46,902 bases of DNA, from NCBI GenBank assembly GCA_902553555.1, contig CACDLE010000006.1, forward strand, positions 1-46,902, written 5' to 3'. The notes under the pieces were generated by a model. It saw nothing but the letters and a program-made list of their open reading frames with translations, did not search any database and had not been told where the DNA came from. Within the stretch, counting starts at the first letter, position 1. Each line of letters starts with the position of its first letter. The DNA is from an uncultured Pelagibacteraceae bacterium (GTDB taxonomy: Bacteria > Pseudomonadota > Alphaproteobacteria > Pelagibacterales > Pelagibacteraceae). The translations under genes and the position numbers were made by a program. Positions 28,591-31,018 of the stretch are shown here, one piece after another.

Positions 28591-29307
28591 ATGTCAAAAA
28601 AAATTAATACAAAATTATCAAAATTAATCAAATATTATAATCTAATAAATTATAACCTAGTTTTTAATAATAAAGAAATAATCAGATACAAAAAAAAAGA
28701 GCTTGCTTCTGAAAGCACAATAGAAAAAAGTCTTAATAATTTATCCCAAGAAATATCTGAAATTAGGGGTTGTAAATTGAAAGATAACGCTAGTAAGCAA
28801 GTTTTTTCTGATGGCAATTCAAAATCAAAAATCATGATAATTGGAGAGGGTCCAGGAGCTAATGAGGATAAAGAGGGATTGCCGTTTGTCGGTAGAGCAG
28901 GACAACTTCTTGATAAGATGTTAGATGCTATTAATTTAAACCGTAGTAACGTATATATTACAAATGTTGTAAATTATCGACCGCCAGAGAATAGAAAGCC
29001 AACTGATGTGGAGGTAAAAAGATATCTTCCTTTTTTAAAAAAACATATTTCAATCATTCGCCCAAAAATAATTCTACTTTTAGGAAGTACGGCAATGAAT
29101 GCTATTCTGGAAAATTCAGATGTAATTTCAAAAATGAGAGGCAAATGGCATGAAGTAATAATTGAAAAATCTAAAATATTTACGATCGTTTCCTTTCATC
29201 CAGCCTATCTTCTAAGGCAGCCAGATCAAAAGAAATTTTCTTGGGAAGATTTAAAAAAGATTAGAGATAAAATAAAAAATTTAAATATAAAAATTGAAAA
29301 AAATTAA
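28591..29307 (+). CDS. Uracil-DNA glycosylase superfamily protein (family 4-like) without a full cysteine set
   Basis: Predicted to excise uracil from DNA. The family-4 active-site motif appears as [20 protein letters not shown], with [15 protein letters not shown] and the second catalytic motif [12 protein letters not shown]. Classical family-4 enzymes bind a 4Fe-4S cluster with four cysteines; this 238-residue protein contains only one Cys (RGCKLKD), and the usual VVKCRPP position is Tyr. The cluster is therefore probably absent. An extended N-terminal region of about 60 residues precedes the core. It overlaps the start of rnhB by 14 bases. Confidence 0.85.
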
Positions 29308-29867
29308 TTTGATAGCTGGTGTAGATGAAGTGGGCAGAGGTTGTCTTGCAGGACCAGTAGTTTCAGCTGCAGTTATAATTAAAAAAAGGCGCAAGACTGA
29401 GCGATGTAAAAGATTCAAAAAAATTGTCTTTTTTAAAGAGAAAAGAACTATCTAAAGAAATCAAAATCAAATCATATTTTTCAATAGGTATTTCCTCAGT
29501 AAAAGAAATTGAAAAATTAAATATTCTTCAGGCCTCGTTGTTATCAATGAAAAGAGCTATCTTTAACTTACCATTAATACCAGACTTAGTGCTAGTGGAC
29601 GGTAATTTTTCACCTAATATTGGTCACAAATGTAAATCTATCATAAAAGGAGATGAAAAAATAAAATGTATCAGTGCAGCTTCGATAATTGCTAAAGTTT
29701 ATAGGGATGAATTAATGATTAAGCTTTCAAAAAAATTTAAAAACTATCTTTGGAATAAAAATTTTGGATACGGTACTAAAGAACATTTAGATGGATTAAA
29801 AAAACATGGGGCATCAACAATACATAGAAAAAATTTTAATCCTATATACAAGATGTTGTTAAAATAA
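29294..29867 (+). pseudogene. rnhB: Ribonuclease HII, reading frame broken by one extra A
   Basis: The gene begins at a TTG at 29294 ([20 protein letters not shown], with the catalytic Asp-Glu) and runs in frame to an A7 tract at 29381-29387. There the frame is lost: as written it stops at 29453-29455. Removing one A restores [14 protein letters not shown], which continues through LVDGNFSPN, CISAASIIAKVYRDELM and the GYGTKEHLDGLKKHG motif to the stop at 29867, giving about 190 residues, a normal RNase HII. RNase HII starts removal of ribonucleotides from DNA. The lesion may be a sequencing indel in the homopolymer, a real mutation, or a site rescued by slippage. The start overlaps the UDG gene by 14 bases. 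Confidence 0.88.
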
Positions 29868-29918
29868 TTTTTTAGACAACTAAACCAACCTTTTTTCACG
29901 TAAAATAGTTTGACCAAA

Positions 29919-29939
29919 GATTCAATTTAAGGTTGAATC
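29919..29939. promoter_or_regulatory. Inverted repeat carrying two GANTC methylation sites ahead of ccrM
   Basis: GATTCAA (29919-29925) and TTGAATC (29933-29939) form perfect 7-base arms around a 7-base spacer, ending 5 bases before the ccrM ATG. Each arm contains a GANTC site, the recognition sequence of CcrM itself. In Caulobacter, GANTC sites in the ccrM leader are known to take part in its control, so methylation-dependent autoregulation is a reasonable inference. Confidence 0.5.
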
Positions 29940-29944
29940 CTTAG

Positions 29945-31018
29945 ATGCATAATTTTTCTAATAAAATAATAAATGGAGATTGTTTAAAAGAATTAAAAAA
30001 AATTCCGAGTAAATCCTTTGACTTGGTTTTTGCTGACCCTCCATACAATATGCAGATTGGTAAAAAATTAACAAGGCCTGATTCAAGCAAAGTCAACGGA
30101 GTAAATGATAAATGGGATCATTTTAATAGTTTTTCTCATTATGACATTTTCAGCAAAACTTGGCTTAGTGAATGTAGAAGAATTTTAAAAGACAATGGCA
30201 GCATTTGGGTAATTGGATCTTATCATAATATTTTTCGTCTCGGATATCATTTACAGAATTTAAATTTTTGGTTGCTCAATGACGTAATATGGAAGAAGAA
30301 TAATCCTATGCCTAATTTTAGAGGAACTAGATTCACAAATGCCCATGAAACATTAATTTGGGCCTCTAAAAATAAAAAATCAAAATATACCTTCAATTAC
30401 CAGTCTCTAAAATGCTTGAACGACGATTTACAAATGCGGTCTGATTGGATACTGCCAATTTGTAGTGGAAAAGAGAGACTAAAAAAAAATGGAAAAAAAT
30501 TACACTCAACACAAAAACCAGAATCTTTATTGCATAGAATTATTTTAGCAACTACCAATAAAGGCGACAAAATATTTGATCCTTTTTTAGGAACGGGGAC
30601 TACTGCAGTAGTTTCAAAAAAATTAGGAAGAACTTATTTTGGAATAGAAAAAGATAAAAAGTATTTTCAGGCAGCCCTAGAAAGGGTTAATAAGGCAAAA
30701 AAAATTGAAGATGATTTTCTTGATACAATTGAAAACAATAAATCAAAACCTAGAGTACCTTTTGGTTCATTAGTTGAATTAGGCATAATTCAACCTGGAA
30801 CAACTTTATTCGATCCAAAGAAAAAAATTAATGCTAAAATTATGGTTGACGGTAGCATCAAATACAAGGAGACTGAGGGATCGATTCATAAAATTGCAGC
30901 TAAAATTATGGGTGCTGAAAGCTATAACGGTTGGACGTATTGGCATTATAATATGAATGGGACACCAGTATTAATAGATAATCTTAGACAAAAATTTATA
31001 TTAGATAAAAAGTTTTAG
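29945..31018 (+). CDS. ccrM: Cell-cycle DNA adenine-N6 methyltransferase CcrM (GANTC)
   Basis: Beta-class adenine methyltransferase of 357 residues. The catalytic DPPYN lies at 31-35, and the SAM-binding DPFLGTGTTAVVSKKLGR comes later, the order expected for the beta class. A C-terminal domain of about 80 residues (RVPFGSLVELGIIQPGTTL, NGWTYWHYNMNGTP) is the CcrM-type DNA-binding extension. It is a solitary methyltransferase with no restriction partner nearby. Position after rnhB and near mutY is typical of alphaproteobacteria. Stop overlaps the convergent monooxygenase by 4 bases. Confidence 0.94.
   Translation: MHNFSNKIINGDCLKELKKIPSKSFDLVFADPPYNMQIGKKLTRPDSSKVNGVNDKWDHFNSFSHYDIFSKTWLSECRRILKDNGSIWVIGSYHNIFRLGYHLQNLNFWLLNDVIWKKNNPMPNFRGTRFTNAHETLIWASKNKKSKYTFNYQSLKCLNDDLQMRSDWILPICSGKERLKKNGKKLHSTQKPESLLHRIILATTNKGDKIFDPFLGTGTTAVVSKKLGRTYFGIEKDKKYFQAALERVNKAKKIEDDFLDTIENNKSKPRVPFGSLVELGIIQPGTTLFDPKKKINAKIMVDGSIKYKETEGSIHKIAAKIMGAESYNGWTYWHYNMNGTPVLIDNLRQKFILDKKF

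Follow-up and report, generated by a model that had tools for sequence, protein, structure and literature searches.

Does the perfect inverted repeat of GANTC motifs in front of a GANTC methyltransferase gene of an uncultured Pelagibacteraceae bacterium control that gene, and at what step? The repeat was analyzed within a 46,902-nt stretch of contig CACDLE010000006.1 (hereafter, the window). The gene, ccrM, encodes a 357-aa CcrM homolog with a DPPY motif, an N6_N4_Mtase domain, and a RAMA domain. The nearest named relative, with a 99% identical CcrM, is a single cell of uncultured Pelagibacteraceae; close matches also included SAR11 isolate HIMB058. The upstream neighbor is rnhB (RNase HII), whose stop codon lies 77 nt before the ccrM ATG. 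rnhB itself (window 29290-29867) is apparently split by a frameshift close to a run of A at about 29380, with the N-terminal portion (GVDEVGRG) in a different frame from the remainder, through either an assembly error or a real break. The features of the locus are as follows:

29892..29905, plus strand: UP-element-like tracts TTTTT (29892-29896, predicted -53 to -49) and AAAA (29902-29905, predicted -43 to -40)
29910..29915, plus strand: predicted -35 hexamer TTGACC, at a fixed 17-bp spacing to the -10
29919..29939, plus strand: inverted repeat GATTCAA-TTTAAGG-TTGAATC, with conserved core ATTCAATTT-nnn-GTTGAAT
29919..29923, plus strand: GANTC site 1 (GATTC), predicted -26 to -22, inside the -35/-10 spacer
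29933..29938, plus strand: predicted -10 hexamer TTGAAT, non-consensus at -11, its register aligned with TCTAAT/TCTATT of sister genera
29935..29939, plus strand: GANTC site 2 (GAATC), predicted -10 to -6, overlapping the -10
29945..31018, plus strand: ccrM, GANTC adenine methyltransferase (NF050803, 4.7e-170, below its curated cut-off; PF01555; PF18755)

Direct reading of the sequence confirmed the perfect inverted GANTC pair that the sequence-only reading had placed 5 bases before the ccrM start. GATTCAA (29919-29925) and TTGAATC (29933-29939) flank the loop TTTAAGG (29926-29932), and CTTAG separates the second arm from the ATG at 29945. With imperfect pairing, the arms reach 10 nt (AAAGATTCAA/TTGAATCCTT, 90% complementary). 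GANTC was depleted in the window (81 observed, 119 expected). When pair frequencies were compared across the window, proximity within 30 bp did not single this pair out (3 observed, 7.75 expected under a first-order Markov model); its form did, as it was the only perfect inverted repeat with 7-nt arms each carrying GANTC (0.4 expected). Because close GANTC pairs are not rare by chance and 0.4 perfect repeats are expected, symmetry alone is weak evidence. As read from the sequences, the strong evidence for the repeat is its position at ccrM and its conservation across species.

Conservation was scored in 92 distinct upstream regions from the window's genus and its sister genus, chosen for carrying TTGAC and TTGAAT correctly spaced. 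Save for one base in one sequence, ATTCAATTT and GTTGAAT were invariant, while neighboring bases varied; selection of the sequences accounts in part for the invariance of the eleven TTGAC/TTGAAT bases, and not for that of ATTCAATTT or the G preceding TTGAAT. Site 1 kept its G in 84/92 regions and ATTC in at least 91/92, and site 2 kept its final C in 74/92. Among the 112 rows of a CcrM tree, 91 had this layout, and 69 of these retained both GANTC sites. The pair at the ccrM start is thus conserved among close relatives, but not completely; in part agreement with the loss that the sequence-only reading would count as refutation, 22 of the 91 lacked one or both sites (14 with site 1 only, 6 with site 2 only, 2 with neither) and nevertheless kept the core ATTCAA/TTGAAT. 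Losses were scattered at tree tips, except for a ten-member group, the sister genus, without site 2; g172 species lacked site 2, and two g1 species lacked both. Given that the core was kept after GANTC loss and that the free N of both sites was nearly invariant, we infer a constraint besides methylation.

The register of the conserved bases suggests a core promoter. TTGAC-18-TYKAWT matched 121 of 129 distinct ccrM upstream regions of the family and had no match in a 152.8-kb coding control. The same spacing from TTGAC reaches TTGAAT, or in other genera of the family TCTAAT, TCTATT, or TTTATT, and GANTC starts at fixed positions, at -26/-27 and then at -15 or -10. Upstream, the T tract was conserved in 77-89 and the A tract in 86-92 of the 92 distinct relatives, with variable bases between, in a register that presumably fits the Escherichia coli UP-element consensus. 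In most relatives (L002-L023), further GANTC sites (GAATC and GACTC), absent in the window species, lay downstream of the rnhB stop and before the T tract. The predicted +1 of ccrM falls at the ATG or 1 nt before it. Likewise, of 93 TTGAAT-type promoters, 91 had the ATG at the predicted +1 or at the next base, and genera with the other -10 hexamers (TCTAAT, TCTATT, TTTATT) had leaders of 6-19 nt. The repeat is therefore best described as the putative core promoter of ccrM, with a predicted leaderless transcript and no leader element. Caulobacter-like sites in the ccrM leader had been proposed from the sequence; because the -35/-10 register puts the ATG at the predicted +1, that leader becomes the predicted core promoter, with both sites inside it (-26 and -10). 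Counting against the promoter reading, TTGAAT has no A at -11, and for this reason a standard sigma70 scan requiring that base did not call a promoter at ccrM.

Related architecture recurred at ccrM across the class. TTGAC followed by GANTC within 5 nt was found in 38 of 68 alphaproteobacterial ccrM upstream regions, with 0.22 expected, and in 0 of 298 coding segments. A second GANTC was present in 25 of those 38, usually 4-6 nt later, and its last C lay at -12 in 21 of the 25. Another family of the same order follows this layout (TTGACC-TC-GATTC-TATTTT-GAATC-ATATT), and Pelagibacter-like relatives retain both sites, at about -26 and -15. The window carries the first element (TTGACC-AAA-GATTC), its site 1 occupying the same spacer region as site 1 of the class-wide ccrM promoters, whereas its second GANTC follows after a gap of 11 with the C at -6, rather than 4-6 nt later with the C at -12. 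With site 1 in its usual position and site 2 lying 5 bp further downstream, where it overlaps the -10, the window's genus appears to have a rearranged form. Several ccrM promoters of genera g5 and g181 (L103, L277, L290-L291, L295, and L298-L299) had no GANTC in the -35/-10 region, with GcrA still encoded. A broad GANTC-spacer regulon was rejected, as TTGACN{2,6}GANTC was no commoner than the backwards pattern in this and related genomes.

GcrA is encoded in this genome (PF07750, 140 bits, cut-off 26.9; NF050816, 126 bits, below the cut-off of 280) and was present in 50 of 61 genomes searched. GANTC between or on the -35 and -10 elements, a feature of GcrA/CcrM-dependent promoters, occurs here at predicted -26 and -10. 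The class-wide architecture was found in 32/54 GcrA-positive and 6/14 GcrA-negative upstream regions (p = 0.37). The extended GcrA motif YGAKTCK was absent from both sites (AGATTCA and GGATTCA); the motif is a Caulobacter preference (PMC7987155) that may not be universal. Since YGAKTCK was unmatched, we describe the locus as working like a GcrA/CcrM-dependent promoter and not as a proven member of that class. In published work, ccrM has been proposed as a core GcrA target across the class (2021, PLoS Genet; PMC7987155), promoters with GANTC between the -35 and the -10 form a timing class of their own in Caulobacter (PMC4287350), the GcrA mechanism has been reviewed (PMC7403470), and in vivo GANTC methylation has been measured in Pelagibacter (PMC9516812, PMC12570018). 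At gcrA itself, the 160 nt upstream contained no GANTC in close relatives (L050, L051, and L065; plus-strand loci), and GTTGAATT/GTTGAAAT stood directly before the ATG, which may reflect a leaderless start or an element common to both start regions.

A CtrA-type input, also raised by the sequence-only reading, was rejected. None of the four PF00486 (OmpR/PhoB-type) genes in the 63% complete assembly scored as CtrA; they encode PhoB, two other full response regulators, and one protein without a recognizable receiver. Upstream of ccrM the TTAA-N7-TTAA box was absent, the lone TTAA (29928-29931) having no partner at N7. Near-complete relatives had just 4-5 PF00486 genes each, and published surveys report ctrA to be absent in Pelagibacter (PMC2877005, PMC7987155). 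The gene at G000:C1:56426-57055 (L335:127-753) encodes a DNA-binding protein of OmpR type with an N-terminal region not recognized as a receiver domain, and near-complete relatives likewise carry a weak fourth PF00486 gene.

On balance, we favor the repeat being a methylation-responsive, probably GcrA-assisted, autoregulatory promoter of ccrM. As this deeply conserved putative promoter carries two target sites of CcrM, one of them inside a hexamer that RNA polymerase would contact, ccrM is probably tuned by its own product; many Alphaproteobacteria show such tuning, but the layout here is new. The autoregulatory or GcrA-type switch proposed from the sequence agrees with the conserved pair and the encoded GcrA, and less well with the loss of sites in 22 of 91 rows. 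Sigma70 RNA polymerase would use TTGACC and TTGAAT and begin the transcript at the ATG, so that the mRNA would have no leader. CcrM would methylate both sites, the one in the spacer and the one overlapping the -10, and their state, full before passage of the replication fork and hemimethylated afterward, would alter promoter opening, most likely via GcrA binding methylated GANTC and sigma domain 2. ccrM output would in this way be coupled to replication as well as to its own methylation. Supporting this promoter reading are the register across the family, the fixed GANTC positions, the T/A tracts, the class-wide TTGAC-n-GANTC arrangement, the presence of GcrA in the genome, GANTC methylation in Pelagibacter, and the earlier studies (PMC7987155, PMC4287350). 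Several points count against a simple GcrA story, namely the unmatched YGAKTCK, GcrA presence not being a significant predictor of the layout, the retention of GcrA in g5 without GANTC in the promoter, and a core conserved beyond methylation needs. Because of these points, we regard a separate dyad-binding protein as possible, if unlikely.

Such a protein, dimeric and possibly CcrM itself, would bind the repeat as an operator overlapping the promoter, with GANTC mainly a by-product at its flanks. This would account for the conservation of ATTCAATTT/GTTGAAT beyond the GANTC requirement, for the 22/91 rows that lost sites and retained the core, and for TTCAA-N7-TTGA[A/C]-like sequences at ccrM in sister genera at other positions, over the -35 in the Pelagibacter-like genus and downstream of the -10 in g173. 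However, the flanking G and C were still kept in 84/92 and 74/92 upstream regions, the GANTC losses at tree tips look recent, and the invariance comes partly from -10 contacts and sequence selection. The exact dyad is also essentially confined to ccrM within the genus, which led us to reject a regulon for it; in the 715-kb assembly, ATTCAA-N7-TTGAAT occurs once, at ccrM. We also entertain, doubtfully, a methylation switch in the -10 itself, in which the methyltransferase modifies adenines within the hexamer to be melted by sigma, the promoter being leaderless; methylation would then act directly on promoter opening or via a CcrM- or GcrA-bound dyad present only at ccrM.

Less probable is that the GTTGAAT box functions in a leader or in translation, with transcription from further upstream and the repeat forming an RNA hairpin at the ribosome site. 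Consistent with this, GTTGAA also directly precedes the ATG in g173, g177, g181, and g5, genera that seem to have a distinct -10 further upstream. The hairpin was nonetheless rejected, because the minimum-energy fold was a different hairpin and not significant (z = -1.33), and no compensatory changes were seen, the stem bases being unvarying in 92 sequences; moreover, these bases are already accounted for by the -35/-10 register and its T/A tracts. A plain constitutive promoter with two GANTC sites by chance is very improbable. In its favor, a simple model gives about 8 pairs within 30 bp per window, and site 2 is missing in g172 species and both sites in two g1 species. Pair density by itself gives no ground for rejecting it; the genus-wide conservation and the class-wide recurrence of GANTC in the same spacer, far above chance, led us to reject it.

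The methylation-responsive promoter that we favor would bear on regulation in SAR11 bacteria, in which regulators are very few and CtrA has not been detected but CcrM and GcrA are retained. If it does respond to methylation, it may be among the simplest replication-coupled feedback loops, with one enzyme, one promoter, and two sites. Across genera, site 2 occurs at -15 or -10 or is missing, a natural series for probing the role of each GANTC. Since ccrM was already proposed as a core GcrA target in 2021, class-wide and general GcrA control of ccrM is not new; the layout of this genus and the predicted leaderless promoter are the new details.

The locus shares with the GcrA/CcrM sigma70 promoters of Alphaproteobacteria a GANTC within the -35/-10 region of ccrM and the coding of both GcrA and CcrM. 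Unlike the class promoters of ccrM, in which site 2 ends at about -12 after a gap of 4-6 bp, site 2 here lies on the -10 after a gap of 11 bp, the transcript is predicted to be leaderless, YGAKTCK is absent, and GcrA action is putative. Relative to sister genera with TCTAAT/TCTATT, site 2 begins at -10 rather than -15. The Caulobacter ccrM promoter, which we take to be CtrA-activated with GANTC sites in its leader, also has GANTC near the ccrM start; in contrast, neither CtrA nor a CtrA box was found here, and the sites lie in the core promoter, not the leader. Promoter P1 of Caulobacter ctrA, activated by GcrA and hemimethylation, carries GANTC near -28/-29 (PMC4287350), almost where site 1 lies in the spacer, although it serves a different gene and has a single site where the ccrM promoter here has two.
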